Positions 24,333-51,526 of a stretch of DNA of 64,000 nucleotides are shown piece by piece. The translations under genes were made by a program, and so were the position numbers. Below the pieces are notes generated by a model. That model was given only the letters and a program-made list of their open reading frames with translations, was not told where the DNA came from and searched no databases. Positions within the stretch are counted from its first letter, which is position 1. Each line of letters opens with the position of its first letter. This stretch comes from Acetomicrobium thermoterrenum DSM 13490 (GTDB lineage: Bacteria; Synergistota; Synergistia; Synergistales; Acetomicrobiaceae), in NCBI RefSeq assembly GCF_900107215.1, contig NZ_FNPD01000008.1, positions 1 through 64,000 of the forward strand, given 5' to 3'.

Positions 24333-25208
24333 TCATCTCCTCTTTCTATTGATTTCTACCATTGTAACAATGGCATCCCACATTCGCTCTATTTCGTCTT
24401 TTATATTTCCTCTATCGACCTCTACCACCGGCACTCCTCGCGATATAGCTTCAACAAAAACCTCGTCGAAGGGAAGTTTACCGATCAATTCTATGCCTCG
24501 CTGATTACAGTATCTTTCGATCTCGCGGCCTATTTCCTCGTTTAAGTCGTATTTGTTTATGCAGACTGCAGCCGGAACGCGGAAGTGTTTGCAAACTCCC
24601 GCCACGCGTTCCAAATCGTAGACCCCTGACACAGTGGGTTCAGCTACCAATAAAGCCATGGTAGCTCCTGAAAGGGACGATATTACCGGGCAACCTATAC
24701 CTGGCGGCCCATCGGTGATAATATACTTTAACGCTTTTTCTTCGGCCAATGCCTTAGCTTTCTGCCTCACCAAAGCCACGAGCTTTCCCGAGTTCTCTTC
24801 TCCGGGAATGAGTCTTGCATAAACCAAAGGGCCATACCTGGTCTCGGACACGAACCAGTGGCCCGATAGGACATCTTCCATCACTATTGCGCCGGCTGGG
24901 CATGCATGAAAACAGAAACTGCACCCTTCACACGAGAGGCGATCGACCTTAAAGTCTTTTATTGCGCCGAACCGACATAGCTTTTGACAAAGGCCGCACT
25001 TGTTGCACTTTTCCTCTTCGATGCGAGCTTTTTTCCCGCTCCAAAATTCACCCTTTTCTGCTATTCTGGGAGACATGACAAGGTGAAGATCGGAGGCGTC
25101 TACATCACAATCTGCCAAAATCTTGCTCTTCCCAATGGCAGCGAACGAAGCTGCTATACTGGTTTTTCCCGTGCCGCCTTTACCGCTTATTATTACAATT
25201 TCGTTCAT
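24333..25208 (-). CDS. MinD-superfamily ATPase with inserted ferredoxin domain (first copy)
   Basis: 291 residues. Deviant Walker A SGKGGTGKTSIAASFA begins at residue 8; Walker A' ILADCDVDASDLH; then an inserted pair of [4Fe-4S] motifs (CNKCGLCQKLCRFG, CEGCSFCFHACPAG) around residues 65-110; then the ATPase resumes (YIITDGPPGIGCPVISSLSGA). This COG1149-type architecture is common in anaerobes, always near NifX-like proteins. Proposed to load or move Fe-S clusters. Paralogue of the next gene. Confidence 0.87.
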   Translation of the reverse strand: MNEIVIISGKGGTGKTSIAASFAAIGKSKILADCDVDASDLHLVMSPRIAEKGEFWSGKKARIEEEKCNKCGLCQKLCRFGAIKDFKVDRLSCEGCSFCFHACPAGAIVMEDVLSGHWFVSETRYGPLVYARLIPGEENSGKLVALVRQKAKALAEEKALKYIITDGPPGIGCPVISSLSGATMALLVAEPTVSGVYDLERVAGVCKHFRVPAAVCINKYDLNEEIGREIERYCNQRGIELIGKLPFDEVFVEAISRGVPVVEVDRGNIKDEIERMWDAIVTMVEINRKRR

Positions 25209-25229
25209 AGGGCTTTCCTTTCTTGGTGT

Positions 25230-26105
25230 TTAAGCGTTATATGTGGCATGAAGCCGACCTTTTTTAAGTGTGTAGAAGAGATCTAAAAAGGCATCGTGCC
25301 ATCGCGTCTTCCCTTCTACCAGGGGAATACCTTTGGAGTAAAGAGTAGCGATATCCCTGTCGAAAGGAATTTTTAGCAACACAGGTATCTCGCTCTCGCG
25401 ACAATATTTCTCTATCAGGCTATCGCGTGAAGGACTCGAACGATTGATTACGACCCCGCAAGGGATGTTAAGATATCTTATCATCTCCACTGCCAGAGAA
25501 AGATCATTCAGCCCAAAGGGGGTCGGCTCGGTGACCAAGATAGTATAGTCGCTCCCCTGTACAGCCTCTACCACTGGACAAGAGGTGCCCGGAGCCACGT
25601 CGATTATCACGTCCCTTTGATTATCAATTTGACCATCTATATACATCTTGGCTTTCCTTATTACTGGTGTTGACATGGGTTCCCCTGTATTGAGCCTTCC
25701 TTGGACAAGTTCCAGATTTTTGCGATAACCTATTTCAACAACACCCACCTGCCTATTAGCTTCTGCAATAGCTGACTCTGGACACAAATAAGAACAGGCT
25801 CCACAACCGTGACACAGCTCAGGGAAAACAATCACCTTGCTCGGAAGGGACGCTATGGCATGATAAGCACATACTTCTGCGCATCTGCCACAATGATTAC
25901 ACCTATCAGCGTCTATTCTGGGAGTGGGGACATGCACAGGCTCTGCTCTTTCGATAGACGCGTGCACAAACAGGTTGGCATTCGGTTCTTCTACGTCACA
26001 GTCCAATATCTGTACTGAAGCACGTTCGCTTACGGCCAAGGCTAAACTCGTGGCCACCAACGTTTTCCCTGTACCGCCTTTGCCGCTCGCTACGGAGACG
26101 ATCAC
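25230..26105 (-). CDS. MinD-superfamily ATPase with inserted ferredoxin domain (second copy)
   Basis: 291 residues from GTG 26105, chosen because gagggggtg stands just upstream; a longer start at 26123 is possible. Walker A is SGKGGTGKTLVATSLA, A' is ILDCDVEEPNANLF, the ferredoxin insert has CNHCGRCAEVCAYH and CHGCGACSYLCPES, and the switch region is IIDVAPGTSCPVVEA. The two paralogues are adjacent and probably work as a heterodimer. Confidence 0.87.
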   Translation of the reverse strand: MIVSVASGKGGTGKTLVATSLALAVSERASVQILDCDVEEPNANLFVHASIERAEPVHVPTPRIDADRCNHCGRCAEVCAYHAIASLPSKVIVFPELCHGCGACSYLCPESAIAEANRQVGVVEIGYRKNLELVQGRLNTGEPMSTPVIRKAKMYIDGQIDNQRDVIIDVAPGTSCPVVEAVQGSDYTILVTEPTPFGLNDLSLAVEMIRYLNIPCGVVINRSSPSRDSLIEKYCRESEIPVLLKIPFDRDIATLYSKGIPLVEGKTRWHDAFLDLFYTLKKGRLHATYNA

Positions 26106-26153
26106 ATCCCCACCCCCTCGCACGTATTTACAGCTCTTGCTGCCATTGCCGCT

Positions 26154-26711
26154 CTAATCTTCAGAAGTTATCTCATCAATGCGACGGTTTATTTCAGAAA
26201 GTTGCTGCTTCAACGCTTCTGCTTGACCTTTCAGCTGCCTGAGCCCTTCTTCTTCGCTCGGCGGTTGGGACACAACCCCTGACATGCTAACGCCTCCGTG
26301 CATCCCGAAGCCGCCCATACCTCGACCCCCACCTTTGCCAAACCCTCCGCCCATCCCGAAGTGAGGAGGGACATCTGGGGCAGATGTAGACGCCGGCTTC
26401 CCCTGCTTAAAAGATAGAACGGCATCCCTTACTGTGCCAGAAACACCTGTGATGATCTGCACGCCAGCGGCAGATAAGACCTCATATGCATTGGGGCCAC
26501 AGCTTCCTGTAAGCACTACCTGTACCCCTTTCCCCACTATCGCCTGAGCAACGCTGATTCCTGTCCCTCCTGGAGCACTTGCGCTGCTGTTTTCCATAGT
26601 CTCAAATTGCATGGAATCAGGATCGACGATGATGAAGTAGGGAGCGCGTCCAAAGCGAGGATCTACCAACGCATCTAAATTAGGAGCGGTCGCCGATACG
26701 GCTATCTTCAT
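26154..26711 (-). CDS. NifX-domain protein with Gly/Met-rich tail
   Basis: 185 residues. The N-terminal 110 residues form the NifX-like domain (MKIAVSATAPNLDALVDPRFGRAPYFIIVD ... GSCGPNAYEVLSAAGVQI). A Gly/Met/His-rich linker (GMGGGFGKGGGRGMGGFGMHGG) follows, then a 45-residue coiled-coil segment (LRQLKGQAEALKQQLSEINRRIDEI). ATG 26711 follows aggtgg. The tail resembles the coiled coil of the neighbouring DUF5320 protein, suggesting that the two interact. Confidence 0.82.
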   Translation of the reverse strand: MKIAVSATAPNLDALVDPRFGRAPYFIIVDPDSMQFETMENSSASAPGGTGISVAQAIVGKGVQVVLTGSCGPNAYEVLSAAGVQIITGVSGTVRDAVLSFKQGKPASTSAPDVPPHFGMGGGFGKGGGRGMGGFGMHGGVSMSGVVSQPPSEEEGLRQLKGQAEALKQQLSEINRRIDEITSED

Positions 26712-26722
26712 AAAATCCACCT

Positions 26723-32625: not shown

Positions 32626-34533
32626 TCAGGGCATCACCTCTTCTTCAGTCACAAGGCTCAATAACATCTCACCTTCCTTTAATACCATGCCATATTTTAT
32701 TAAATTGATAATAGATTGCTTAATCTTATCTTCATCTTCTACGAAACCTTTTTCGCTTAAACTTAACGCGATAGCCTCAATGGTCACGGGCTTACTGCAA
32801 GCTTTGCAAACTGCCAATGTAAAGGGATCAAGCTTTATGTGCCATTCGCCCTCACCGGACCTTCTGTCGATTATGAGCCCTTCTTCGTCGCGTGAAAAAC
32901 AAAGCGAACTTTTGGGATGAATTTCCTTCCAGAAAAATATGTTTTCCATAAGTTCATGGGTATACTCGGCGCAATTTTGGGGGAGCTGATATTCAAAGGT
33001 AAAAAAAGAGGCAAGATTGCTCACTGATTCATCATCAAAGGGGTAAACGTAAGAATAGGATGGATAGGGACTTACGTCCTTTATACCATATCCTGAGGGA
33101 TCTTCGAAACAGGGACTAAAGCGGTCTAGCCTGAATTGACCAGCATAGTTGGGCGGATGTAAATGAGTCAACAGGGGCACTAGCTTCGCCATGTTTTCGT
33201 AAGCCTCCACAGGTTCGCCCGGGAAACCCCATAGAAAGTTCCACACCGGCATTATTTTTGCTTCGCGACACCCTTTGAGAAATGCTATGTTTTGAAGTAC
33301 ACTCACTCCTTTGCCAATTATGGACAAAACCCTTGAGCTTAAGGATTCAATGCCGACTTCAAGCCTTTTTAGCCCACAGGCAGATAGCTTCTCAAGTAAT
33401 CCAAAGTCAATGTCCGGCCTTACCTGGAGATAAATGATTTCCGGCTTTTTTTCAAATGCGGACAGCGCATCCGCCAAAGCCTCGAGCATTTCCTTATCGG
33501 CCGATTCGTCGCTTGCGCATAAACTAAAGCCCTCGTATTTGCTTGCAAGAGTTCTTACTTCTGAGACTATTCTGCCTCTGTTTTTCTTTCTGAAGACGAG
33601 CGTCTCGCTCGATTGGCCGCAAAAGATACACCTTTTTTTCTGGCCCCAGTAACAACCCCTGGACATCTCGAAAAACAACCTCGGCTTTACTCGCGAATCG
33701 GACCTTCTTTTTCTATAAATGTTCGCGAAATCATCGTAATCTGGAATTGGTACCGAACCCATATCCATCTCCAAAACATGACGGTAATGATCAGAAAATT
33801 TTTCACCTTCGCTTTTCAGATTCATAGGAGTTACAATTCCATCTACCTTGGACAGGCCGCCCAAGTCGAAACCTTCAAGGCAAAGACCGACGAATTTTTT
33901 AAATGAAGTATCTCCCTCTCCAAGGCATATGGCATCCACGAAGGGGTGTTTCGCCAAAAATTCCAGGCCCATCGCTCCTTTGCAATTGGCTCCACCAAAG
34001 ACCACTGTGGTGTCTGGGAGAACCTCTTTTATCCTCCTTGCCAACGCCAAAGAGGCGACCTGCTGATGAAACATGCTTGTGAAAGCTGCTATTTTCGGCC
34101 TTTCCCTTGCGACGACCTTTGAAATTTCTTCTAAAAAAGAGCCTGCCGAGTTTTGAACCTTTAACAGTTCATCGGAAAGATGAGCGTCAACGCCAGGTTT
34201 ATCGTATGGTGCTTTATGCTCCTTTAAATTTCCTATGAGCACTTGGTCAACATATTCCTCGAATGTAGGAATATTATTACCATATAGCATTTCGGCAAAC
34301 AGCCTGTCTCCAAGCAAATCTACAATATGCCAAGTAGATATTTTATCATACAAATCTACACCGATCTTTTCAGAAAAAGTAACGTTGAAATCAAAAACCT
34401 TGACGTTGAATTCATCTTTCAAAGCGCTTTTTAAAATACCGAGGGCAAAGGAAGGTTGCCTAAAACTGGCGAAGGGCATGTTGATCAAAGCGACATCCAG
34501 GTTGGCTTTTGCTTTTGGTATTGATAAGATCAT
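32626..34533 (-). CDS. B12-binding radical SAM protein resembling RiPP maturation radical SAM protein 1
   Basis: 635 residues. N-terminal cobalamin-binding-like domain (VALINMPFASFRQPSFALGILKSAL ... VVFGGANCKGAMGLEFL ... AICLGEGDTSF), then the SAM cluster motif in SRGCYWGQKKRCIFCGQ near residue 300, then VGIESLSSRVLSIIGKGVSVLQN and WNFLWGFPGEP. The RGC-W-G-x-K/H-x-x-C-x-F-C-G spacing is that of the rSAM_ocin_1 family that modifies ribosomal peptides. The C-terminal 100 residues (DPFTLAVCKACSKPVTIEAIALSLSEKG...) look like a winged helix of the PqqD/RRE kind. Its ATG overlaps the YwlG-like stop. No precursor peptide gene is visible, so its substrate is open. Confidence 0.75.
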   Translation of the reverse strand: MILSIPKAKANLDVALINMPFASFRQPSFALGILKSALKDEFNVKVFDFNVTFSEKIGVDLYDKISTWHIVDLLGDRLFAEMLYGNNIPTFEEYVDQVLIGNLKEHKAPYDKPGVDAHLSDELLKVQNSAGSFLEEISKVVARERPKIAAFTSMFHQQVASLALARRIKEVLPDTTVVFGGANCKGAMGLEFLAKHPFVDAICLGEGDTSFKKFVGLCLEGFDLGGLSKVDGIVTPMNLKSEGEKFSDHYRHVLEMDMGSVPIPDYDDFANIYRKRRSDSRVKPRLFFEMSRGCYWGQKKRCIFCGQSSETLVFRKKNRGRIVSEVRTLASKYEGFSLCASDESADKEMLEALADALSAFEKKPEIIYLQVRPDIDFGLLEKLSACGLKRLEVGIESLSSRVLSIIGKGVSVLQNIAFLKGCREAKIMPVWNFLWGFPGEPVEAYENMAKLVPLLTHLHPPNYAGQFRLDRFSPCFEDPSGYGIKDVSPYPSYSYVYPFDDESVSNLASFFTFEYQLPQNCAEYTHELMENIFFWKEIHPKSSLCFSRDEEGLIIDRRSGEGEWHIKLDPFTLAVCKACSKPVTIEAIALSLSEKGFVEDEDKIKQSIINLIKYGMVLKEGEMLLSLVTEEEVMP

Positions 34534-35109: not shown

Positions 35110-36243
35110 TTAAGCTGAGACTTTCATAATGCGTTGCTCGAGATATCCCGTAACCACTCTAATATATCCGCAGAGTGCCCGATCCAGCTCTTCGTCTCCC
35201 GTGTCGACCAGAAGGGGATTATGGCCGAAGGCCGATACCTTATTGCGCGTCGAAATTACGATGAGGTTGTCAAGGCCAACCTTTCTTATGACCTTTGGAC
35301 TGATCTGTTGATTGCCCCTTCCAAATATATATCCCTGTCCCCCAATTACCGTGACGACTATAAAGGCTTCTTTGGCATCCGATAAAATTTCGAGCAACTT
35401 TTCTTCGTCGGCATCGAAGGTTACAAGTCGCTTGCCCTTGGCGACGTCAACACCAAGCAACGTGTAGCCTTCTCCCAACTTCTCTTTAATGGCCCTCGTT
35501 GTTGTGCCGGGGCCCAAAATGTAAAGGGCATCCTTGTGCTTCTCCATATGATCCAAAATGTAATAGGATATTCCCTCCAGGTCGATCGCGTCAGAAGCTG
35601 CTTGCCCCGCCTTCTTGCTTTGAACGAAAGTCCTCTCGTGAGGAATGAACAAATATCCGTAAAGGGCAGCACTAACCCGGCCTTTGCGGAAGGCCTCTTC
35701 GTCTATATCCATGACTTCCGCTTCCTTTACATCCTTTGTCTTTCCCTGCAAATAAAGGAGAGCTAGTTCGCCCGCTCTCCTTGGATTTATTGCAAATACG
35801 CCGGAATGGATTTTAACGCCCGCCGGAATTCCCAAAACAGGTTGCCTTTTTTCTTTTATAGCCGAATATATGTCTCTGGCAGTTCCATCTCCGCCCGCGA
35901 ACAATAAAAGTTCAACGCCGTAATCTGCTATTTCTCTTGCCGCCTTCTTTGTGTCTTCCGAGGTCGTATTTCCCGGGGTAATCTTGCCTATAACGGTAGG
36001 GTTAAAACCTGCATCTTTTGCCTCGATCTCGCCCATTTCTCCACCGTATGTGACTATCTCTATTTCGTTTTTTAAGGGGGCTAGGCGGAGGAGGGCCTCT
36101 ACGGCCTTTTTGGGCGCCTCAGCTATCGCCCCCCTTTCCCTGCAGATCCTCAAGACCTCCTCGCCGTCGGTACCTTTTAAACCCAATCTGCCTCCCATGC
36201 CGGCAATGGGATTGACCACAAGCCCCAGTCTATGACGAATCAT
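35110..36243 (-). CDS. ATP-NAD kinase-like protein (COG3199/AcoX type)
   Basis: 377 residues. LGLVVNPIAGMGGRLGLKGTDG at the start and LLLFAGGDGTARDIYSAI (the GGDGT motif of NAD/diacylglycerol kinases) near residue 105, followed by PAGVKIHSGVFAINP. The extra C-terminal domain (VIGGQGYIFGRGNQQISPKVIRKVG) is that of the AcoX-like group. Likely binds ATP and NAD or a keto compound; the true reaction is unknown. First gene of the operon running to gcvPB. Confidence 0.78.
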   Translation of the reverse strand: MIRHRLGLVVNPIAGMGGRLGLKGTDGEEVLRICRERGAIAEAPKKAVEALLRLAPLKNEIEIVTYGGEMGEIEAKDAGFNPTVIGKITPGNTTSEDTKKAAREIADYGVELLLFAGGDGTARDIYSAIKEKRQPVLGIPAGVKIHSGVFAINPRRAGELALLYLQGKTKDVKEAEVMDIDEEAFRKGRVSAALYGYLFIPHERTFVQSKKAGQAASDAIDLEGISYYILDHMEKHKDALYILGPGTTTRAIKEKLGEGYTLLGVDVAKGKRLVTFDADEEKLLEILSDAKEAFIVVTVIGGQGYIFGRGNQQISPKVIRKVGLDNLIVISTRNKVSAFGHNPLLVDTGDEELDRALCGYIRVVTGYLEQRIMKVSA

Positions 36244-36634
36244 TAATAAACCCCCTAACGATGATACAGCAGAAATAAGTCATTCACACAGTAGAAAACC
36301 GACAGATAACCTTCGTTCATTATACAACATTAACTATCTTTCAACATCACAAATATAGTTTAGCTTATTAGATACATTAACATTGCCGATGATAAGCTAG
36401 CCGTATGCTATATTGCCGTCATAAAAGTAAGGACTTGAATGTAATAAAGTTAAATCACACATACCTGTCTTTTGAAAGGTTATATAAATGTTTCAACACT
36501 TTTTTTCTATAAGAGAAGGAATCGATTTAATATTTTAAATAAAAGGTGGGTTCTCTATAGGATTATAAATTTTCAATTTCAATTGGACTCAAGATCTGGC
36601 ATCTTGGGAAGTACTTAATCAAGATGGCTACATA
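36244..36634. other. AT-rich gap between the gcv operon and the microcompartment operon
   Basis: 391 bases without a convincing gene. A TATAAT on the minus strand (36324-36319) may be the -10 of the NAD-kinase-like operon, but its -35 is poor (TTGAAA only 14 bases away). Two weak inverted repeats (tagcttat / ataagcta around 36361-36399) are too far apart to be a clear terminator. I see no recognisable end signal for the microcompartment operon. Confidence 0.4.
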
Positions 36635-37141
36635 TTAAACTAATTCTCCATTGCGCAATAGCCCCCTTTGCTTGTAAACATCAGCAGCTTCACGAACCCA
36701 TTCCGCACATTTCTTCGCATGATAAACGTTTTCAAGCTCTTCTGCCATCTTAAGCAGCTCATCTTCGGTAGAACGCCGCGGTCGTAAGGCCTCATATATT
36801 TCCAAAAGGCGCTGGTCAGGGATCTGAGTCATCTCGGCTGCACGCTGCAAATTATTGGCAAAACATGGCCTTTTTGCCTCTAAAGCTATCTTTGCCTGTA
36901 GTTCCAGCGTTAAGGGTGATATGCGAAATTCTTCCGGTGCTACACTCCCCTTTAGCATTCCATCAAATGTCACTTCTTTAAACGGACGACCTTTGGGAGT
37001 CTGAAGCAATTCCGGCCTTTTTTCTCCTAAGGGATAGTCTGCAATGGACACCTCAGCAGAATCGGAATCTGTCTTTTGGTTGCATTGCATCTCATCCATG
37101 ACTTGACGTATTATAGTCTTTAAAGTCTCTTCAGAAATCAT
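36635..37141 (-). CDS. Second B12-dependent diol/glycerol dehydratase, small subunit
   Basis: 168 residues of the PduE type. Starts with an amphipathic helix (ISEETLKTIIRQVMDEM) like the encapsulation peptides of microcompartment cargo; conserved core DYPLGEKRPELLQTPKGRPFKEVTFDGMLKG, NNLQRAAEMTQIPDQRLLEIYEALRPRRSTEDEL. ATG 37141 follows ggagg at 9 bases and lies one base after the medium-subunit stop. Last gene of the operon. Paralogous to the subunit at 50984-51526. Confidence 0.88.
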   Translation of the reverse strand: MISEETLKTIIRQVMDEMQCNQKTDSDSAEVSIADYPLGEKRPELLQTPKGRPFKEVTFDGMLKGSVAPEEFRISPLTLELQAKIALEAKRPCFANNLQRAAEMTQIPDQRLLEIYEALRPRRSTEDELLKMAEELENVYHAKKCAEWVREAADVYKQRGLLRNGELV

Positions 37142-37142
37142 A

Positions 37143-37805
37143 TCATACAGCCTCCTTTTTCCGTAGTTCCAGTTCCATCGACGGAGTTTCCTCTTGAACA
37201 TATTTTACTTCTTCCATATGCATAATTGCTGACTTAGCTTGATAACGTGGCCTCGACATCGGGTCCTGTAATGTAGGAACAGGCTGAGGTGTTTCACCTT
37301 TGGCGTATTTGGCAGCATTTTTCCCAATGGCCCGAAAGACTTGAAGGGTCATCACCGGCGCTTGAGGAAACAATTCCAAGTTGGATAACGGAAGAAGGTC
37401 ACGCTGATGAATAACAGCCGTACCACGGGTCTGCAAGCCGATGCCTACCCCGGAACCGCTTAATTTTGCTGCCTCATGACCAATAAAAGCACAATCTGCA
37501 GTCTTAAGCACACGGACGATCCTGGGTTTGACTCCTTCCTCCTCTATTCCAGCCATAATCTCTCTAAGAACTGCCATAACATCGATCCCCGTAATAGTTT
37601 TCGTTAAACGTCGACCGTAAGCTGGACTAATGCCGATTACTACTTCATCACGCTGTATACCACGTTTTGCCGGCCCTATTTCCCTAAGTTCAAATTTATC
37701 GTCAACATCATGAAGATTATTTACAGAAGACACTTCTTTTGCGTCTAAGTTTCTTATAACTTCTCCCACAATTTTTTTAAGTAATTCTTTGTCAGAAATT
37801 TCCAT
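37143..37805 (-). CDS. Second B12-dependent diol/glycerol dehydratase, medium subunit
   Basis: 220 residues of the PduD type: N-terminal helix EISDKELLKKIVGEVIRNLDAKE (probable encapsulation and solubility helix), then EIGPAKRGIQRDEVVIGISPAYGRRLTKTITGI, FIGHEAAKLSGSGVGIGLQTRGTAVIHQRDLLPLSNLELFPQAP (B12-contact region) and GKNAAKYAKGETPQPVPTLQDPM. ATG 37805 chosen for spacing from aggagag. Thirteen bases after the large subunit. With its partners forms the catalytic hexamer. Confidence 0.88.
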   Translation of the reverse strand: MEISDKELLKKIVGEVIRNLDAKEVSSVNNLHDVDDKFELREIGPAKRGIQRDEVVIGISPAYGRRLTKTITGIDVMAVLREIMAGIEEEGVKPRIVRVLKTADCAFIGHEAAKLSGSGVGIGLQTRGTAVIHQRDLLPLSNLELFPQAPVMTLQVFRAIGKNAAKYAKGETPQPVPTLQDPMSRPRYQAKSAIMHMEEVKYVQEETPSMELELRKKEAV

Positions 37806-37818
37806 GACCATCTCTCCT

Positions 37819-39495
37819 TTAAATCAGGTCTTCTGGTCCAAGCTCCATGGGTATCTTTTGGATCTCTTTCCACTTCTCATCGGACACCCGGTAACCTGTT
37901 CCTGGACCCGAATAATCGTTTGGTTCATTTACTGAGCTGATGACGTGGAAGTTTTTATCGATAATGGCTGAGGTCTGTAAATAATCTCCAGCAATTCGCT
38001 GCTTGAGGACTTCAAAAATGCCTCTTGCCGCATCTGTATAGCCATTTTTTGCTAGTATCTTAGCGATATCAATTCCAGATATCCCATCTTCTACTAACCG
38101 TTGTGCAGCTTTCATATCAGCGACCATGTCGCGCTCTGGCATTTCACGGCTTCCGTTGCAATAAATAGCCGCTTCGATTTCATCATCTGTTATGGAGGGT
38201 AAACCCAATTCGTTGAAGACGCATTGTATAGCCCTAGCCGCTCGACTGCGTATTTCAATTGCCTGTTCTTCCTTTATCGGCCGCAGACCACCGTCGACCT
38301 TGAGGTCGCGTTGCAAAACCATCCAGTCATAATAATCGGCCGTATCCCAATTGGATCCAGCAAACATGTTATCGTAGTTCGGCGTAGCGCTATATCCTCC
38401 ACATATAAAATCCGTACCTGGGAGCAATTGCATCAGCGTACGGGCTACACGCCTGATATCGGAATGCGTAAAGCTCTGATCATTACCGGTTACCGTCTCC
38501 AAATCCAAGATGGCGGCAGCTAAATTTTCTGCCAAGATAGCTCGAATACCGCCCGGCAATGCGGCTCCCACCCCAATGCAACTCTTACATCCGTTCTGCG
38601 TGCCTTGAGCGCCATCGCCCTTGGTGACCATAAGAGTCCTTACTTCCAAATAGAGCATCGATTTGCCATCCGGGTATCCCATAAGTAATTCTGCCGCTCC
38701 ACCTGAAGTAAATCGTGTTTTAGCACCTCGAGATTGGTAGGCAGAGCATAGGAACCCTTTTGACCAAGGGGTATCGTCGCCATCCACAAAGACCCGCTCT
38801 GTCCCGTAAGTGGAAATGGTCTCCGCATACGAAGTCCAGCCTGACATCGCTTGCCTAAGTTCTACGCTCTCTTCCATACTGCAGCAGGTAAGAACTCCAG
38901 GACGGCCAATATGCCCACCTACTAAGAGAGAAATAGCATTAAGAGGACCGTAACGAGTATTAGCTACGGTAGTTTCCAATTCATCGAATCCATATAATGC
39001 CCCTTCGGCAGCATCTGCTGCTATCAATACAGGGTTGTCACGGACATTCGTAACGTGGCATTGTTCAGCCGGGCGCTTACGGGCACGCATCTTGTACATT
39101 GCCATCATCAACTCAACTACGTTTAACAGGCTAAGCACTTTAGCGATCTTAGCAGGGGTAAGGGCGCCAAAAATTTTGATCAACTCAGACCTTGAAACTG
39201 CAGGATCGACCAACATATAGGCCAGCTTTGAACAATCAATCGCCATCATTTCCGAAGCCAAGGAAACGTCGATCGTATGATCAGCTATGAATCTGTCAAT
39301 CATATCAAACTTCTCGCGCCTAACCCCGTCCATTTCTACAATTTTGCCGTTAACGACTTCTACGCTGGGTTTTGGATCAAATGGGCTATCCATAGCAATT
39401 AATCCAGATTCCGGAATTTCCTTTAAGAAACCATCCAGTGCAACTGGACGCTGCTCTAAGATTTCAAATCTCTTCTGTCTCTTGCTCTTAGCCAA
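37819..39495 (-). CDS. Second B12-dependent diol/glycerol dehydratase, large subunit (altered pocket)
   Basis: 558 residues of the PduC family, TTG start at 39495 behind aaaggag. Catalytic residues keep Klebsiella numbering Gln141, His143, Glu170, Glu221, Gln296, Ser301, Asp335, Gln336 and Phe374. But QNGSVSCIG of the classical enzyme is QNGCKSCIG here (Ser299 to Cys, Val300 to Lys), and the ISSGYS loop is ICGGYS (Ser362 to Gly); Gln267 is Leu and Ser264 is Ala. These positions line the substrate or adenosyl site, so the substrate probably differs from 1,2-propanediol. It follows a glycerol dehydrogenase gene by 62 bases. No second reactivase accompanies it. Confidence 0.88.
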   Translation of the reverse strand: MAKSKRQKRFEILEQRPVALDGFLKEIPESGLIAMDSPFDPKPSVEVVNGKIVEMDGVRREKFDMIDRFIADHTIDVSLASEMMAIDCSKLAYMLVDPAVSRSELIKIFGALTPAKIAKVLSLLNVVELMMAMYKMRARKRPAEQCHVTNVRDNPVLIAADAAEGALYGFDELETTVANTRYGPLNAISLLVGGHIGRPGVLTCCSMEESVELRQAMSGWTSYAETISTYGTERVFVDGDDTPWSKGFLCSAYQSRGAKTRFTSGGAAELLMGYPDGKSMLYLEVRTLMVTKGDGAQGTQNGCKSCIGVGAALPGGIRAILAENLAAAILDLETVTGNDQSFTHSDIRRVARTLMQLLPGTDFICGGYSATPNYDNMFAGSNWDTADYYDWMVLQRDLKVDGGLRPIKEEQAIEIRSRAARAIQCVFNELGLPSITDDEIEAAIYCNGSREMPERDMVADMKAAQRLVEDGISGIDIAKILAKNGYTDAARGIFEVLKQRIAGDYLQTSAIIDKNFHVISSVNEPNDYSGPGTGYRVSDEKWKEIQKIPMELGPEDLI

Positions 39496-39557
39496 ATTTG
39501 AACACTCCTTTCGCAATTACTGCAACTTGAACAACTTATGATGAGGCTAATATCTTT

Positions 39558-40655
39558 TTACTCCTCTAAAAAGGCCCTTCCCAATGCATCGGCGCCCAAC
39601 ATGGCATTTACGACCATATCGGGGGTCACTTTGAACGGCATATTTGCCATCGTGGTGCCTTCCGCACAGGCAGCTTCAGCAGCCGGGAACAATTTCTCAT
39701 AGCTTACCTCCTTGAGCCCAAGCTGCTTTAGCGTTACCGGAAGACCAATTGAGCATGCGAAATCCAGCACCTCATATATGGTGTCAGGATCTGCGTCCTG
39801 AAGCACCAACTGCGTCAACGTACCAAAGGATACCTTCTCCCCATGATAGGATTTATGCGTCTCTTCCAGGACTGTCATGCCGTCGTGGACCGCATGAGCG
39901 GCGGCAAGCCCGCTGCTTTCAAACCCCAAGCCGGAAAGCAGGGTATTGGCTTCGACGATCTTTTCCAATGCAGGAGTCACGGCATGGGCTTCGCAGGCGA
40001 TCTTGGCATCCAAGCCGTATTCCAATAACAATTCGTAACAGAGTTTAGCCAAGGCCAGTGCTGCGGCAGTCCCCTCGCCTCCTGGCATGTTAGGGGCTTT
40101 CGTGAAGCTGCACGCTTCTGCCTCAAACCACGTAGCTAAGGCGTCTCCCATGCCGGATACGAGCAAGCGGGTTGGGGCTTTAGCAATTATATTGGTATCT
40201 ACCAACACCAAATTGGGATTATGAGGAAGGACAAAATACCTTTCAAATACGCCTTCAGGTGTATAGATGACGGCCAGCGCACTGCAAGGAGCGTCCGTTG
40301 CTGCTATGGTGGGTATTGAGGCCACGGGGACCTTCATGTACTCGGCAACGGCCTTGGCGGTATCGAGCGCCTTTCCTCCGCCAACGCCAACTATAACGTC
40401 AGCACCGCTTTGCTTGGCAATCGCCGTTAGCCTGTCGATTTCCTGGTCGCAGCATTCCCCGCCAAAGTGCTCTTCAAAATATTCTATGCCGTTTTCGGAA
40501 AAACTTTTCTTCATGGCATCCCTAACGGAATCTAGCCCTCGTTTTCCGCCAAGCACCAGTGCCTTTTTGCCAAGCAATGCTACGTGCTTTCCGACCTCGT
40601 TCATTGCCCCTGCCCCCTGGACATACCTGCCCGGGGCTATCATTATTCTGGCCAT
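39558..40655 (-). CDS. gldA: Glycerol dehydrogenase (iron/zinc alcohol dehydrogenase superfamily)
   Basis: 365 residues. GGGKALDTAKAVAEYMKVPVASIPTIAATDAPCSALAVIY is the GldA NAD and metal region; Asp and His ligands occur in MGDALATWFEAEAC and AHAVHDG. The family oxidises glycerol to dihydroxyacetone or reduces hydroxyacetone and related carbonyls. It takes the place where pduQ (propanol dehydrogenase) might be expected, so it may regenerate NAD for the compartment. Between pduT and the second dehydratase. Confidence 0.88.
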   Translation of the reverse strand: MARIMIAPGRYVQGAGAMNEVGKHVALLGKKALVLGGKRGLDSVRDAMKKSFSENGIEYFEEHFGGECCDQEIDRLTAIAKQSGADVIVGVGGGKALDTAKAVAEYMKVPVASIPTIAATDAPCSALAVIYTPEGVFERYFVLPHNPNLVLVDTNIIAKAPTRLLVSGMGDALATWFEAEACSFTKAPNMPGGEGTAAALALAKLCYELLLEYGLDAKIACEAHAVTPALEKIVEANTLLSGLGFESSGLAAAHAVHDGMTVLEETHKSYHGEKVSFGTLTQLVLQDADPDTIYEVLDFACSIGLPVTLKQLGLKEVSYEKLFPAAEAACAEGTTMANMPFKVTPDMVVNAMLGADALGRAFLEE

Positions 40656-42582: not shown

Positions 42583-43965
42583 CTAAACTATGCGAAACGC
42601 TCCGTGAAGGACGCAACGGCGCAGCCTGCAGAAGGACAGCGGCGTAGTCGGGCCATCTCCGGTGGTCGTTCCTATAGTAAATGCCGTGGGGCAATCGCCT
42701 CCAACGCCTATAGATGCAAATGAGGGTGCATTTTTGACGAACATCGACGTCTCCATTACCTTTGCCATGTCGCTCATGTTGTCTATGTTGGTGCTGTGGA
42801 TTATGGCAGAATGCTTGAAGCCGTGTTCTACGCGCTTTGCCATGGCCAGTCCCTCTTTGAAATCGGCAACCCTTACCATGGCAAGTATTGGCATCATGAG
42901 CTCTTCCTGGACGAAGGGATGTCTTTCGTCACATTCGACTAATATAAGCCGCACATTGGGAGGAGGGGTAATGCCCAACTTTTCCAAGTATACTGAGGCA
43001 TTTTTGCCAACCATATCCTTTTTTATCTTGTGATCCTTTGTCAACACCAGGTCGACCAAAGCGTCTATCTTCGATCGATCCTTTAATTCGTACGCCCCGT
43101 TATGGCACATTAGATCTTTCAGCTCGTCGGCGATACAATTGACGGCTATCAGTTCCTTTTCCGCGATGCATGGAAGGTTGTTGTCGAAGGAAGCACCGGC
43201 GATTATGTCTTTAGCAGCTTTTTCGAGATGCGCCGTCTCGTCGACCAGGACCGGAGGGTTACCTGGGCCTGCTCCTATGGCAGGCTTGCCTGAAGAAAGG
43301 GCTGCCTTTACCACTCCGGGGCCTCCTGTGGCCGATATCAGCTTAATGTCCGGATGGAACATTAACTCCTTTAAGCTATCCAGCGACGCATCGCTCAATA
43401 CCGACACCACCTCGACTGGCGCCCCTTCCTCGGCCAAAATGTCTCTGATCAGCTCTACGGTTCTTAAGGTACAACGCAATGCACCTGGGTGGGGTGAGAA
43501 TACTACCCCGTTGCCTCCCGACAACATGCAGATAGTATTGTTTATTACGGTAGCGACCGGATTGGTGGAGGGCGTTATCGAGGCAATGACTCCGAAGGGA
43601 GCCAACTCCTCCAGTATAAGGCCGTTGTCTCCTGATATTGCCTTGGTAGTGAAGTATTCGGGTCCTGGCGTTTTGGTAATTGCAAGTTTTTTCTTTAATA
43701 TCTTATCATCTAAACGGCCCATATCCGTATCGTCTCGCGCAAGCTTGGCCAGCTCTTCAGCGTGGGGCAGGAGCTTCGACTTGATCGCCGATAGGATTTT
43801 AGTTCGAGCATCGAGGTTGTAATCCCATTGCCATGCCCTTTGGGCTTCGACGGCAGCTCCTACGATTTCCCCAACAGAAGTTCGACCTTTGGCCTCCTGA
43901 GCCAGTTCCTTCGTTACCTTCTCGACAATTTTTTTAACAAGATCATCTACCCGAACTGATTCCAT
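42583..43965 (-). CDS. pduP: CoA-acylating propionaldehyde dehydrogenase
   Basis: 460 residues of the aldehyde dehydrogenase family. The catalytic Cys is in FDNNLPCIAEKELIAV near residue 240. The first 20 residues (ESVRVDDLVKKIVEKVTKEL) form the PduP encapsulation helix. ATG 43965 follows aggggggg; the earlier in-frame start would overlap pduO. Converts propionaldehyde, or 3-hydroxypropionaldehyde, to the acyl-CoA using NAD. Confidence 0.92.
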   Translation of the reverse strand: MESVRVDDLVKKIVEKVTKELAQEAKGRTSVGEIVGAAVEAQRAWQWDYNLDARTKILSAIKSKLLPHAEELAKLARDDTDMGRLDDKILKKKLAITKTPGPEYFTTKAISGDNGLILEELAPFGVIASITPSTNPVATVINNTICMLSGGNGVVFSPHPGALRCTLRTVELIRDILAEEGAPVEVVSVLSDASLDSLKELMFHPDIKLISATGGPGVVKAALSSGKPAIGAGPGNPPVLVDETAHLEKAAKDIIAGASFDNNLPCIAEKELIAVNCIADELKDLMCHNGAYELKDRSKIDALVDLVLTKDHKIKKDMVGKNASVYLEKLGITPPPNVRLILVECDERHPFVQEELMMPILAMVRVADFKEGLAMAKRVEHGFKHSAIIHSTNIDNMSDMAKVMETSMFVKNAPSFASIGVGGDCPTAFTIGTTTGDGPTTPLSFCRLRRCVLHGAFRIV

Positions 43966-43976
43966 AAAGACCCCCC

Positions 43977-44918
43977 CTAACGCTCCCACGCTCTGACCAT
44001 GGCTTCGGCAACGCTTACATCTTGCTCAACAGATCCTCCGCTTACTCCAACTGCACCTACAATCTCCGCACCATCCTTCAGCAGCAGACCCCCACCGAAT
44101 ACCACCAGCTCGGGGTCATTTTGAAGACCGTAAAGATCCTTGCCCGGTTGCACTAAGCGAGACAATGCCTCAGTGGACATCTTCAGCTTTATGGCGGTAG
44201 AGGCTTTTTTGGGCGCAAGACCCAGACTGACTTGAAGAACGCCCTCCATTCTCTCGAAAGCGATCAAAAAACCGTAAGAATCACAAACTGCCATGGCCAT
44301 CGGAACTCCTATCTCTTGTGCCTTTCTGCGCCCCTCATTTATCAGTTCGCGCGCCCTCTGTGCATCAAGGCCACTTATGCCTTTGTTCATTTTGGTCACC
44401 ACCAATTTTGTAATTTTTCTTATAGCGCTCTCCCAGTAAGCCGAAACAGCCAGGGCATATATATAATCGGAAAGCCTATTCAGATATCTATAGGTCTCTT
44501 CGCCGATTAAATTGGACTCAAGGGACTTAAGGCCCACTCTTTCGGCCCTTCTTGCAAAGGCCCTCGCAAGGTGAAGAGCTGCGCTTGTTTCATCGTCTCC
44601 GGGAAGAACGAATTTATTATAAAAAGGGTATTCACTGATAAGATGATCGATACGTCTTTCCAGTTCGGTTGACGACACCTTTCCTTTATCGGCCTTCCCG
44701 CGAGCAATGTAAGCCATGACCTCTATCAATTCAGCCTGAAGTTCTGCAATCCAATTCGAAACCTTAGAAGGTGCCTTTGATCTAGCGATTCCCAAAGCAC
44801 AGGTCACTTCATCCAAGGTGCCGTTTAAGATGATCCTTGGATCGTCTTTTCTGACCTTGGTACCATCGTAGAGAGACGTTTCTCCCAAGTCGCCCCTTTT
44901 GGTATATATTCTCACCAT
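43977..44918 (-). CDS. pduO: PduO: corrinoid adenosyltransferase fused to a GlcG/HbpS domain
   Basis: 313 residues. The N-terminal 175 residues form the PduO-type ATP:cob(I)alamin adenosyltransferase (YTKRGDLGETSLYDGTKVRKDDPRI, LDEVTCALGIARS, ARAFARRAERV); the rest is a GlcG/DUF336 domain (AQRARELINEGRRKAQEIGVPMAMAVCDSYGFLIAFERMEG), giving the full-length PduO layout of the enteric protein. Makes AdoCbl for the two dehydratases. It ends 12 bases before the pduP start. Confidence 0.92.
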   Translation of the reverse strand: MVRIYTKRGDLGETSLYDGTKVRKDDPRIILNGTLDEVTCALGIARSKAPSKVSNWIAELQAELIEVMAYIARGKADKGKVSSTELERRIDHLISEYPFYNKFVLPGDDETSAALHLARAFARRAERVGLKSLESNLIGEETYRYLNRLSDYIYALAVSAYWESAIRKITKLVVTKMNKGISGLDAQRARELINEGRRKAQEIGVPMAMAVCDSYGFLIAFERMEGVLQVSLGLAPKKASTAIKLKMSTEALSRLVQPGKDLYGLQNDPELVVFGGGLLLKDGAEIVGAVGVSGGSVEQDVSVAEAMVRAWER

Positions 44919-45236: not shown

Positions 45237-45556
45237 AGCAATTTACCCCCACTCTTTAAAGCTTCAAGAGCCCTTTCCACTTCGCCCACAGATCCGACAA
45301 TAGCTACAGCCGGCATGTGCTGAGGACAATTTCCCATTACCTCAAATGCCTCTACTGAAGCGATGTCAGTGGCTATATCTACAGCAGCTATCGTCTGTGC
45401 TATCATTCCCTGCAATAGCAAAACTGCGCCCCACTTCACTCTGTTGAGCAGCTCCTCTTGATCTACAGGCATACTTTTCATAATTCGGTTCATCAAAATC
45501 CTCTTACATGAAGGGGAGGGTGCAATTATGAGCTCCCATTGAAGGGCCATCGTCAT
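45233..45556 (-). CDS. Divergent, apparently circularly permuted BMC-domain protein
   Basis: 107 residues. The part KWGAVLLLQGMIAQTIAAVDIATDIASVEAFEVMG...PAVAIVGSVGEVERALEAL lines up with a BMC-H domain ([25 protein letters not shown]...[13 protein letters not shown]). The segment before it, WELIIAPSPSCKRIL, resembles the strand and tail that end a normal BMC protein ([15 protein letters not shown]), as if the chain were permuted as in PduU/EutS. Function presumably shell-related. Overlaps the genes on both sides by 4 bases. Confidence 0.65.
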   Translation of the reverse strand: MTMALQWELIIAPSPSCKRILMNRIMKSMPVDQEELLNRVKWGAVLLLQGMIAQTIAAVDIATDIASVEAFEVMGNCPQHMPAVAIVGSVGEVERALEALKSGGKLL

Positions 45557-46209
45557 CTCTCCTCCACTTTAATTCCGAGAGACCGGAGTCTGTCCAAAGC
45601 CTCATCGGTCAAACGAGCCTTCTTGCCCAAAAGCACTCTACAAACGCCTGACAGACGATCTGCTATTTCACACCAACTTATCCAGCCTTCCTCTTCGACA
45701 TACAAGGTTTTGCTGACCGTACCTTCTTTTGTAACGAATTCATCGCCAGCAATTACAGCTATGCCCTTTTTGGAAAGTTTCAATAAAATATCTTCAAAGG
45801 TGCCTTTCTTCGCCGCAGTCGTTTCCGGATGACATTTGACGGAGCCAATATGGAGCACGATCGGCATGCCCTTTTCAAGACAACCATCGACGAGCAACCC
45901 GGCAGCAGAATAGGGGATTCCCAAATATATTTCGGAAATCAGCTGCATGGAGGCCATCGGTATCGCCAAGGCCGATAACGTAGCAGATTCACGCCGCGGG
46001 TCTTCCAGGGATTCCACGAAATAACAGGGATTATTGTTGACTTTAAACACCTCGGAAAAATTCTCTGGCACATAATGTACCCATGTCACCTCGTCACATG
46101 ATTGCCATTGATACATTTTGGGTCCTTCCGAAGACCATAGAACCCCTACCCTGGGCATAAATACCCTTTTCATCACGATATCGCGTACGTTACTTACAAT
46201 ATCCCCCAT
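45553..46209 (-). CDS. PduM-like microcompartment protein
   Basis: 218 residues, longer than enteric PduM (about 163). The segment AAGLLVDGCLEKGMPIVLHIGSVKCHPETTAAKKG...FEDILLKLSKKGIAVIAGDEFVTKEG recalls the PduM layout (small-molecule flavoprotein-like fold, then HAGS). ATG 46209 follows ggagg at 7 bases. Located between eutJ and the divergent BMC gene. PduM is needed for proper compartment assembly; assignment here is tentative. Confidence 0.5.
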   Translation of the reverse strand: MGDIVSNVRDIVMKRVFMPRVGVLWSSEGPKMYQWQSCDEVTWVHYVPENFSEVFKVNNNPCYFVESLEDPRRESATLSALAIPMASMQLISEIYLGIPYSAAGLLVDGCLEKGMPIVLHIGSVKCHPETTAAKKGTFEDILLKLSKKGIAVIAGDEFVTKEGTVSKTLYVEEEGWISWCEIADRLSGVCRVLLGKKARLTDEALDRLRSLGIKVEER

Positions 46210-47089
46210 GACATCGCCTCCACAGGCATTCAGCAATTCCGCTAGGGGTCACAACCAATGGATATGGAGCCAAGGTAGCCTCAACTCCTAATACCTTAGA
46301 TATAACTTCCGAGGCACCTTGCATATTTGCTCCACCGCCAACGACTACGACCGGCACTCTCCCGAGAAAGCCGCTTTTGGTAAGATGGTCCTTTGCAATC
46401 AAACCCATCTTTTCAAATACGGGACGAACTATATTAAAGACTTTTTTGTGGGAATTTACGTCACGTTTTAATCTTTCGGCTTCATCGAAGGATATGCCCA
46501 AAGCGCCGGCAATAACTAACGTTACATGGGTACCCCCTGTTGGCTCGTCAGCAGAATACACCACTTCATCATCTGAAATCACAGCTATGCCCGTCGTGCC
46601 TCCGCCTATATCTATTATTGCTCCCCTTTTTAAACCCAAAGCCACCGCCGCAACCACGGGTTCTTCGTAGAGGCCGAGGCATGAAAATCCCAAGGCCTCT
46701 ACCACATTAGCACACACTTCGGCAGTCCTTCTGGAAATCCCCGGCGGGTAGGCCGATGCGCCCACTCCGGGAAATTCATCGACTCCCAAACGCTCTCTCA
46801 ATGTCATCAGGCAATGTTCCATGCCATCGATGGCGGCGATATAATCCACTATTACGCCATCGCGTATGGAAGAACGGGAGTCGTATAAAGCAGCGGTAAC
46901 AGGCTGACCCCGCTCATTCAATGCGACAAGCTTCATGTTAGTGGTGCCCAGATCGAAGCCGAGATAAAGCTCCTCCCAATCTGCCAAAGGCTCGCTGCAG
47001 TCTAAGGCTTGATCGATAGATGCAAGCTTACCTAGGACATTTTCGTCGATTAAATCACCATGCAAGACGCTTTGATTTCCGTAAGTCAT
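46190..47089 (-). CDS. eutJ: EutJ-type Hsp70-like chaperone
   Basis: 299 residues of the ASKHA ATPase fold: YLGFDLGTTNMKLVALNERG, SAYPPGISRRTAEVCANVVEALG, AAIDIGGGTTGIAVISDDE-like segment (IIDIGGGTTGIAV) and VVVGGGANMQGASEV. Family EutJ, usually found in ethanolamine loci but also in some Pdu-type ones. Overlaps pduL by 4 bases. Probably helps fold or reactivate the B12 enzymes or load cargo. Confidence 0.85.
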   Translation of the reverse strand: MTYGNQSVLHGDLIDENVLGKLASIDQALDCSEPLADWEELYLGFDLGTTNMKLVALNERGQPVTAALYDSRSSIRDGVIVDYIAAIDGMEHCLMTLRERLGVDEFPGVGASAYPPGISRRTAEVCANVVEALGFSCLGLYEEPVVAAVALGLKRGAIIDIGGGTTGIAVISDDEVVYSADEPTGGTHVTLVIAGALGISFDEAERLKRDVNSHKKVFNIVRPVFEKMGLIAKDHLTKSGFLGRVPVVVVGGGANMQGASEVISKVLGVEATLAPYPLVVTPSGIAECLWRRCHGGYCK

Positions 47090-48662: not shown

Positions 48663-49124
48663 CTAAGTCAAACCCATTTGTCGCAAAACTTTAGCGATTA
48701 CTGCAGCAACCTCTTGTTCGCTCGCTTGTCCGCGGGCCTTACCCTTATTGAAAGTGCTCTTGGCTAATTGAGGCATTGGGGGCAGGGGAAGGCCTTTGAC
48801 CAAACGTGCTGCTGCCTGCCCCAACCAACGAAGCGCTCCTCCGTCCTCGTGATAAATCAATGGCTTCCCCGGATCGAGATTTGCTAAGGTTAAGGCACAC
48901 CCTTCTTGAGTAACGCCTATTCCGACCCGCAAACGGGATCGATTTGCTGCTTCCCATGCGAGCTTTTTGGCATCTCCCTCCATGACATCCCATGCCAGAG
49001 GAACCCCCTCTTCTTCGGCACCGATACCCACCTCGCCGGCAATAGACCTGGAGGACTCGTCAAGCAACAGCAAAATCGTGGGTCGTTCCTCTTTCATCTC
49101 GCCCAATCTACCGCACCAAGTCAT
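48663..49124 (-). CDS. pduH: Diol dehydratase reactivase, small subunit
   Basis: 153 residues: PTILLLLDESSRSIAGEVGIGAEEEGVPLAW and AWEAANRSRLRVGIGVTQEGCALTLANLDPGKPLIYHE match the PduH/DdrB fold. ATG 49124 overlaps the pduG stop (ATGA). With PduG it exchanges damaged cobalamin for intact AdoCbl in the dehydratase; it must serve both dehydratases since no other copy is seen. Confidence 0.9.
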   Translation of the reverse strand: MTWCGRLGEMKEERPTILLLLDESSRSIAGEVGIGAEEEGVPLAWDVMEGDAKKLAWEAANRSRLRVGIGVTQEGCALTLANLDPGKPLIYHEDGGALRWLGQAAARLVKGLPLPPMPQLAKSTFNKGKARGQASEQEVAAVIAKVLRQMGLT

Positions 49125-50956
49125 AAAGCCTTCCTCCCAGCGCTCGATAGAACAAGACCGGTCGCCACAGCATTGCGCGGCCCTAAACTACCCCTGATAT
49201 TCCCTCTCCCGGCAACGACGGAATACTTGGCCAATTCTTCCGTGATCATGCTTGGAATTTCGAAATCCAGGGCAGAACCTCCGACGAGCACCACAAAATC
49301 TATGAGACGTATATTTTGTGCCGGGGCGACACGCTTTAAAGCCCTTAAAGCATTTGTCACGAAGACCTCTTTCTTTGCCTTCCTCCTTACATCCCTGATC
49401 TTTTCGATAGATGTATCCAACAAAATCGGACTTAAAAAGTCCTCTTTTATCATCAAGGCAACTCTACCGAATAGCTCGGGAGCCAGAGGCTTTTCAAAAA
49501 ACCTCACCGTTCCATCCTCGAGGCGGACGTGGAAAACGCTTTCGACCTTGCATAGAGGATGTTCTTTAATGTTCTCGACTAACTCCATATCATCTATGCC
49601 CAATTCGCTGGAAATTATGGTGTTAACCATGTTACCCGCGCCCGCCAGATGAATTAGTTCTACCTGACTATTAGAGCGGAGCAGTGAGGCATCGGTGCTG
49701 CCAGCACCCAAATCCAAGACCGCCAGAGGAGCATCCGTTCCGGGAGTGGTCAATGCTCCCAAAACTGCCATTTCGGCCTCAACCCCTCCGATTTCGACTT
49801 TTACGCCCATATCGGACTCTATTGCAGAGGCCAATTTTTGCATTGGCAGCTCCTGGGCTTCTACCATTACGGCCAAAGCCACTCCGGTTTCCATTGCAAA
49901 TTCCTCTGCCAAGCCTCCCACGACTCTCTGGGGAACCATTGTATCGACTGCCAATAGATCTTTGATGTGTATCTCCCCCAGAGGCAAACCCGTCAATTCC
50001 GACATGGTCTTACGAACCCGCTCCATCATTCCCCCAACGTTGGTGCCTGGTTGGCCAAAAATATCAGTAATGGGCCAATTAGCATCAACAATTTCCATGA
50101 TCGCCTTGGCGCCTTCGTCAATGTTGATGCTCCTCTTGCCCGTTGGGCCTAGGATATACAGCTCTCCGGCTGGAATACGCCTTTCCTTCACCTCGCCCAA
50201 GGGTGTCCGTATCACAACGGCTGACCTGTTGCCTATTAGGGCCTTGGCAACGGGAACGATCTGACGAGTTTCATCGGAAGACAAACCAAAAATAGTTGCA
50301 ATACCGTAAGGATTGGACAAAAGTTCCACAGATCTTCCCGGAGGAGCTACCTCCACACAGCACTGCATACCCAAAGGAACACGATCGATTGCCTTGACTT
50401 CGTCGACAATAGGAATAGTTTTATTGATCCGGTTTGCTATAAGCACTCCGTCGTCTGACTGGCAAATAACCCCATTGACGGCTATTCCACGAGATAAGGC
50501 TAGATTGATCATGTTTGCAGCCTCTTCAAAACTAACGCTTTCTGGAATGACAACTACCACAGGATCTTCAGGCTTCGTCTTTTCGAGATCGTAAATCGAT
50601 ATCGTCCTTCCAACGCCAATCCCAACTCCGCCCGGCGTCGATGGATTATGACCAATCATCGTTGACTCGGTAATGATCGTTTCGGTAATAGTCTCCATTG
50701 CAACGTCTCCGATCACAGGAGCTGCCTTGTTCAATCGAATTATGTCGATCCTTTTGAAATCTTCATGTGGCCATCCCGCTTGCTCCAAAGCAAGAGACAG
50801 AGCTCGGCGAACGCCGGTTACGTTCTGCAATGTTCCCTTTATTCCCGTAGTATAGGCAGTAGAGGAAGAGATAAAGTCCACCGAGCCATCTTCCACTCGC
50901 GCAAGGGCCACTTCAGTAGTAGCATTTCCTATGTCAACGCCAGCAATAATAGGCAC
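49121..50956 (-). CDS. pduG: Diol dehydratase reactivase, large subunit
   Basis: 611 residues, ATPase of the Hsp70-like fold: IIAGVDIGNATTEVALARV at the start, GGVGIGVGRTIS, LAVLDLGAGSTDASLLR and VVLVGGSALDFEIP. PduG/DdrA. Works with PduH; the gene lies between pduE and pduH as in enteric loci. Confidence 0.94.
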   Translation of the reverse strand: MPIIAGVDIGNATTEVALARVEDGSVDFISSSTAYTTGIKGTLQNVTGVRRALSLALEQAGWPHEDFKRIDIIRLNKAAPVIGDVAMETITETIITESTMIGHNPSTPGGVGIGVGRTISIYDLEKTKPEDPVVVVIPESVSFEEAANMINLALSRGIAVNGVICQSDDGVLIANRINKTIPIVDEVKAIDRVPLGMQCCVEVAPPGRSVELLSNPYGIATIFGLSSDETRQIVPVAKALIGNRSAVVIRTPLGEVKERRIPAGELYILGPTGKRSINIDEGAKAIMEIVDANWPITDIFGQPGTNVGGMMERVRKTMSELTGLPLGEIHIKDLLAVDTMVPQRVVGGLAEEFAMETGVALAVMVEAQELPMQKLASAIESDMGVKVEIGGVEAEMAVLGALTTPGTDAPLAVLDLGAGSTDASLLRSNSQVELIHLAGAGNMVNTIISSELGIDDMELVENIKEHPLCKVESVFHVRLEDGTVRFFEKPLAPELFGRVALMIKEDFLSPILLDTSIEKIRDVRRKAKKEVFVTNALRALKRVAPAQNIRLIDFVVLVGGSALDFEIPSMITEELAKYSVVAGRGNIRGSLGPRNAVATGLVLSSAGRKAL

Positions 50957-50983: not shown

Positions 50984-51526
50984 CTATTCCGGTATATCGC
51001 CACGTAAAAGTTTACGTCGTTCGTAAACAGAGACCGCTTCTCTAACGAAGGTGGCACATGCCGTTGCGTTATATTTGTTCTCAAGCTCATCGGCAATTGC
51101 CATGAGTTCTTCCTTGGTCGATCTATGTGGTCTTAGGGCGTTATAGATCTCCAACACCCTATCATCGGGCACTTTCGTCAATTCGGCAGCTCTTCTTAAA
51201 TTTGATGCCACCTGACGCCTTCCGGCCGACTCTGCTATTTCCGCCTGCATCAACAAGGCTTCCGGAGCAATTCGAAAGTCCTCAAAGGTAGCCTTGCCCT
51301 GCAAGACAGCATCTAAGGTGAGTTCACTAAAGGCATTGCCCCTTGGACTCTTTATGGTGTCGGGCTTTTTGGAACCTAAGGGATAATCCTTTACGGAAAG
51401 GCTCCCTTTCTGTCCCGTGCTTTCTTTTGGAGTGGGGGCCTTTCCTTCTCCTCCCGAAGAACTCATACCCTTTAAGACCTCTTTTACCAGTTCAGCTATC
51501 ATTTCTTCATTAAGCATTTGAGCCAA
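50984..51526 (-). CDS. pduE: B12-dependent diol/glycerol dehydratase, small subunit (first copy)
   Basis: 180 residues; TTG start at 51526 behind agggggcg. N-terminal amphipathic helix (LNEEMIAELVKEVLKGM), linker, then VKDYPLGSKKPDTIKSPRGNAFSELTLDAVLQG and NLRRAAELTKVPDDRVLEIYNALRPHRSTKEEL. Third subunit of the first dehydratase. Confidence 0.92.
   Translation of the reverse strand: MAQMLNEEMIAELVKEVLKGMSSSGGEGKAPTPKESTGQKGSLSVKDYPLGSKKPDTIKSPRGNAFSELTLDAVLQGKATFEDFRIAPEALLMQAEIAESAGRRQVASNLRRAAELTKVPDDRVLEIYNALRPHRSTKEELMAIADELENKYNATACATFVREAVSVYERRKLLRGDIPE

Follow-up and report, generated by a model that had tools for sequence, protein, structure and literature searches.

The Pdu microcompartment operon of Acetomicrobium thermoterrenum DSM 13490 carries at its 3' end a second B12-dependent dehydratase, which we propose was acquired horizontally, probably works and has a changed substrate specificity within a compartment shared with the resident enzyme. 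We put the probability of this reading at about 0.55. The window analyzed here is a stretch of 64,000 nucleotides (contig NZ_FNPD01000008.1, positions 1 to 64,000), and the genes in question lie on its minus strand: the large subunit (C2) at 37819-39495 (NF011979, 877 bits, cut-off 788), the medium subunit (D2) at 37143-37811 (NF011616, 298 bits, cut-off 248) and the small subunit (E2) at 36635-37141 (NF011972, 203 bits, cut-off 183). Each of them passed the curated NCBIfam cut-off for propanediol/glycerol dehydratase. All three reading frames are intact and have good ribosome sites. C2 starts at a TTG with an AAGGAG site (the mechanical open reading frame begins upstream at 39516), and E2 starts at an ATG at 37141 with an AGGAGG site (the mechanical frame reaches 37201). 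Based on all curated models together with all catalytic residues, C2-D2-E2 is assigned to the propanediol/glycerol dehydratase family (PduCDE/DhaBCE).

The trio lies in an inserted segment (36371-39546, minus strand) that was delimited by homology breaks to three relatives. In a genome of the same species (G010) and in genomes of the same genus (G006 and G008), the operon has the same order and GldA is directly followed by an NAD-kinase-like gene. Homology to these genomes ends at approximately 39547-39558 and restarts at 36370, and about 3.2 kb in this genome stands where the relatives have 90–100 bp. This short stretch in the relatives contains a GC-rich hairpin of 9 bp (folding energy -19.7 kcal/mol, z about -4) followed by a T-run, which is an intrinsic terminator; its loop is longer than 8, and it was missed by the terminator scanner and revealed by folding. 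Directly after E2, weak structure was found and nothing comparable to this hairpin. The GldA-type glycerol/propanediol dehydrogenase gene (39558-40655, minus strand; NF006941, 538 bits), the native last gene before the insertion, is 98–99% identical in the relatives, where the terminator comes next. On the other side, the native NAD-kinase-like gene (35110-36243, minus strand; PF01513/PF20143) follows the insertion. Codon usage of the trio correlated with that of other window genes at r 0.34, compared with 0.74 ± 0.09 for random three-gene sets, none of which (0/434) was as low; the GC content of the insert is 0.446 versus 0.479 for the window. Moreover, the trio was found in this one genome and in none of the relatives compared. 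C2-D2-E2 is apparently foreign, a horizontally acquired and lineage-specific set of genes that was spliced onto the 3' end of the operon and replaced its terminator.

It is very improbable that the trio is instead an old tandem duplication of the first dehydratase genes of the operon (C1-D1-E1) that was lost from the relatives, or an assembly error. Either would agree with the presence of the trio in a single genome, and in the AU test a position of C2 as sister to the Synergistota large subunits was not rejected, nor was an origin on the Sporomusaceae side. However, the empty site with its terminator is common to all three relatives, the codon usage of the trio is foreign, and a misassembly would require two separate misjoins at a distance of 3.2 kb within one contig. 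Both junctions fall within a single contig of a 1.97 Mb genome with a listed completeness of 99.95% and contamination of 0.05%. The empty site, the codon usage and the two junctions were the grounds for rejecting simple duplication and misassembly.

The closest matches of C2 were large subunits of Sporomusaceae and Desulfosporosinus, with 63–65% identity. No relative of more than 65% identity was detected among GTDB species contigs or plasmids, nor in the sampled genomes of Synergistota, Negativicutes, Clostridia, Chloroflexota, Spirochaetota and Bacilli (the large groups being partly sampled), and viral contigs contained no relative whatsoever. The insert itself carries no transporter or other substrate-specific gene besides the trio.

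The host operon begins with a PocR-domain kinase and a response regulator, followed by shell genes, C1-D1-E1, PduG/PduH, more shell genes, PduL, an EutJ-like gene, PduN, PduO, PduP, PduS, PduT, GldA and C2-D2-E2. The first dehydratase, whose large subunit (C1) has the canonical residues, is encoded at 52215-53912, with its medium subunit at 51542-52201 and small subunit at 50984-51526 (all minus strand). The same strand encodes the reactivase PduG (49121-50956; TIGR04491, 958 bits), a PduH-like reactivase subunit (48663-49124; PF02288) and a PduP-type CoA-acylating aldehyde dehydrogenase (42583-43989; NF011927, 593 bits). With shell proteins, PduP, PduL, reactivase and signature dehydratase all together, this is a confirmed PDU-type BMC locus. 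The whole genome has one full-length PF08841 reactivase, PduG/PduH being the sole pair, and the operon has one acylating aldehyde dehydrogenase. A preliminary description of this DNA had proposed that two different B12 dehydratases share one reactivase and one aldehyde dehydrogenase, and the gene content of this single BMC operon corresponds to that proposal. Among 53 PduC-containing loci with a length of 15 kb or more, no second PduC was found. Since there is one reactivase in the genome, a working C2D2E2 would have to depend on PduGH, unless it can do without reactivation. The trio would also be co-transcribed with the operon, because the terminator is lost, the strand is the same and the spacing is short. 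That one compartment serves two B12 dehydratases is anatomically well supported, with co-expression and encapsulation being what we infer from this layout.

Several other features of the operon and its upstream region were observed. A 227-amino-acid operon protein (45553-46236) in a PduM-like position had no Pfam or NCBIfam match and showed 48% identity in G006. The C69 peptidase, PocR kinase and response regulator genes at 56032-60530 were 100% identical to those of G010, and most of the operon was about 95–99% identical; this contrast may possibly reflect a recombination mosaic. Further upstream (60851-63980) are genes for an FGGY sugar kinase, a 2-hydroxyacid dehydrogenase and an L-fuculose-phosphate-aldolase-like class II aldolase. 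It is possible that these are a source of lactaldehyde or glycolaldehyde and hence of diol.

PduCDE of Salmonella and K. oxytoca (PDB 1dio, 3auj) is an AdoCbl-dependent 1,2-propanediol dehydratase, with which the trio shares the three-subunit architecture and fold, all metal and radical ligands, N-terminal extensions of the D and E subunits and the BMC operon context; C2 and the PduCDE large subunit are about 58–60% identical. Unlike PduCDE, the trio is a second copy in its operon, and C2 has Lys300, Gly362, Cys299 and other changes at family-invariant positions. The best PDB sequence match was a DhaB-type glycerol dehydratase (K. pneumoniae; PDB 1iwp, 1mmf), which has the same catalytic residues. 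However, the N-terminal extensions of D2 and E2 have no counterpart in the DhaB-type medium and small subunits, and the DhaB-type large subunit has Ala299, Val300 and Ser362, unlike C2.

The extensions bear on encapsulation. The D2 N-terminus, MVMEISDKELLKKIVGEVIRNL, aligns with residues 1-18 of Salmonella PduD, which are necessary and sufficient for encapsulation of PduCDE (PMC12108088); the medium subunit of the Klebsiella DhaB operon is without such an extension. The hydrophobic moment of the D2 extension relative to shuffles (p 0.12) was not significant on its own. E2 also carries an N-terminal extension, but the PduE extension was reported not to be a signal (PMC12108088). C2D2E2 would likely be encapsulated in the Pdu shell.

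In the microcompartment literature that we read, we found no example of a Pdu operon that carries two dehydratases one after the other, and none of the other loci compared here had this layout. In the RMM2 BMC locus, diol dehydratase genes occur beside another signature enzyme, and this locus was suggested to be possibly bifunctional (PMC4207490). In RMM2, an aminotransferase is the partner and the dehydratase is encoded on the opposite strand, whereas here two dehydratases stand in line in one operon. The related shells PDU1AB and GRM4 interchange signature enzymes (PMC8217296).

Residues are numbered according to K. oxytoca by alignment (the residue of the 565-amino-acid C2 open reading frame minus 11). 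The metal and radical residues Q141, H143, E170, E221, Q296 and D335 are all kept in C2, and the known substrate and metal contacts, which comprise these residues together with S301, Q336 and F374, are intact. The C2 motifs are Q296-N-G-C299-K300-S301-C302 and C361-G362-G363, and those of C1 are Q-N-G-S299-I300-S301-C and F361-S362-G363. The preliminary description had claimed that C2 combines retained radical-chemistry residues with Cys299, Lys300 and Gly362 and that the first copy has a canonical pocket. Alignment to K. oxytoca and the codons themselves (TGT for Cys299 at 38587-38589, AAG for Lys300 at 38584-38586 and GGA for Gly362 at 38398-38400, all minus strand) agree with it in each respect. 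Since AAG is at least two bases away from any Ile or Val codon, no single base error could produce Lys300.

We compared these positions in 161 distinct PduC homologues spanning several phyla, drawn from Synergistota, Bacillota, Chloroflexota, Spirochaetota, Thermodesulfobacteriota, and enterobacterial and haloarchaeal plasmids. Position 300 was Ile in 116 and Val in 45 of these sequences and position 362 was Ser in 161/161, Lys300 and Gly362 being present in C2 alone. C2 also deviates at Gln200, Gly263 and Ser332, each invariant in the 161 homologues; the six metal and radical residues are invariant as well. The Sporomusaceae and Desulfosporosinus large subunits that were aligned have Ile/Val300 and Ser362, unlike C2. 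Free variation of the pocket positions, which the preliminary description had named as an outcome that would speak against its proposal, was seen at position 299 (Ser in 144, Ala in 14 and Gly in 3 homologues) and not at position 300. Ile/Val300 and Ser362, neither of which C2 has, are conserved in the sampled family members and are not formal membership criteria. A DNA pattern for QNGxKSC had no match across 20 genomes in the group around G192, and the literature searched contained nothing on Val300. Among Chloroflexota, three PduC homologues (L176, L177 and L178) occur in open frames of 746–855 amino acids, perhaps fused to another subunit, and that of L178 is very divergent, with Asp at position 301.

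The three substitutions differ in weight. Because position 299 varies between Ser, Ala and Gly (the enzyme of the Klebsiella operon annotated for glycerol dehydratase, L145, has Ala299), Cys299 by itself is unremarkable. Ser362 is a metal ligand whose contact is presumably made through the main-chain oxygen. The K. oxytoca S362A enzyme has a kcat of 105 s-1 and a kcat/Km of 1.3e6, compared with 304 and 5.1e6 for the wild type (PMC7674605; Km values were not used, as the Km column of the table appears displaced by one row). As this mutation is tolerated mildly, Gly362 tells little about the substrate, and since the S362A enzyme is active, Gly362 excludes neither function nor family membership. 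With Cys299 and Gly362 weak, the pocket argument rests on Lys300. This residue adjoins Ser301 in sequence, and the C3 hydroxyl of glycerol points toward Ser301 in one of its two conformations (PMC7674605).

The main alternative, conceivable if somewhat unlikely, is that the acquired enzyme is an ordinary one and continues to act on 1,2-propanediol, glycerol or ethylene glycol. Lys300 may then be directed away from the substrate, and the odd residues would alter kinetics, temperature behavior or resistance to suicide inactivation. The intact substrate and metal contacts agree with this, as do the mild effect of S362A, the natural variability of residue 299 and the arrival of the trio alone in an operon already handling these aldehydes. 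However, Ile or Val occupies position 300 in every homologue compared, across several phyla, C2 deviates at the otherwise invariant positions 200, 263, 332 and 362, and little would be gained from a second ordinary copy.

Several results limit how far the pocket of C2 can be interpreted. C2 deviates at 26 of 214 near-invariant positions (93% threshold). These deviations were not significantly clustered within three residues of active-site anchors (p 0.8 at the 93% and 0.5 at the 97% threshold) and were weakly enriched in residues 190-385 (p 0.09 and 0.045, respectively). The terminal branches of C2 (0.96 versus a median of 0.21), D2 (1.18 versus 0.40) and E2 (1.76 versus 0.59) are 3 to 4.6 times the median. 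Given the long branches of D2 and E2 and the lack of active-site clustering, part of the change in C2 may be general fast evolution. AlphaFold gave C2 a diol dehydratase fold (top PDB matches 1mmf, 1iwp and 3auj). The pLDDT of this model was below 50 around the pocket, and the C1 control, modelled with the same sequences, behaved likewise, somewhat more mildly, so that the models give no direction for Lys300.

The long terminal branches of all three subunits, the scattered unusual residues of C2 and the occurrence of the trio in one genome would also fit a recent passenger under relaxed constraint, which is drifting and has weak or no activity. We consider this unlikely. None of the three frames is disrupted and each has a good ribosome site, the catalytic residues are all kept, and D2 and E2 retain 51 of 55 and 24 of 25 near-invariant positions, respectively. 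In addition, a long branch common to three subunits at 55–65% identity is far older than the insertion; thus, most changes arose in the donor, where the catalytic residues were evidently held by constraint.

A working, horizontally acquired enzyme with changed specificity would be co-transcribed with the Pdu operon, would enter the same shell as C1D1E1 and would depend on the resident PduGH and cobalamin enzymes to stay active. Its chemistry would be that of PduCDE, with hydrogen abstraction by the adenosyl radical, a 1,2-OH shift and loss of water, and the resulting aldehyde would be passed to the same PduP/PduL/GldA. The remodelled C2 barrel, chiefly the replacement of Ile/Val300 by Lys beside Ser301, which meets the C3 substituent of the substrate, may alter substrate choice. 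It is plausible, as the preliminary description suggested, that the substrate is charged or larger than usual. The most specific guess we can offer is a 1,2-diol whose C3 group is polar or anionic, similar to glycerate or dihydroxypropanesulfonate, although an anionic diol takes up only a small part of the probability given to changed specificity. The idea that Lys300 binds a C3 carboxylate, sulfonate or phosphate, such that one compartment handles two substrates with a shared reactivase and aldehyde dehydrogenase, is quite doubtful. If true, C2D2E2 would be the first B12-dependent diol dehydratase whose substrate is a charged diol, such as an anionic one.

Around the substrate, known B12 diol dehydratases hardly vary, with Ile or Val at residue 300 in all 161 sequences. 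A natural Lys300 enzyme with full radical machinery offers a direct way to test what determines specificity and whether B12 dehydratase chemistry can also act on charged diols. The insertion further illustrates a simple route by which a microcompartment may gain function, in which a bare enzyme trio replaces an operon terminator and the resident shell, reactivase and downstream enzymes are ready to serve it.

Two other loci in the window were also observed. A cluster at 22709-26720 contains P-loop ferredoxin proteins (CbiA/ParA-type) and dinitrogenase iron-molybdenum-cofactor-domain proteins. A RiPP maturation radical SAM C-methyltransferase (32626-34533; TIGR03975, 499 bits) lies beside gcvPA/gcvPB and a TIGR01440 gene; it is 69% identical in G006, and its gcv neighbors are 97–98% identical.
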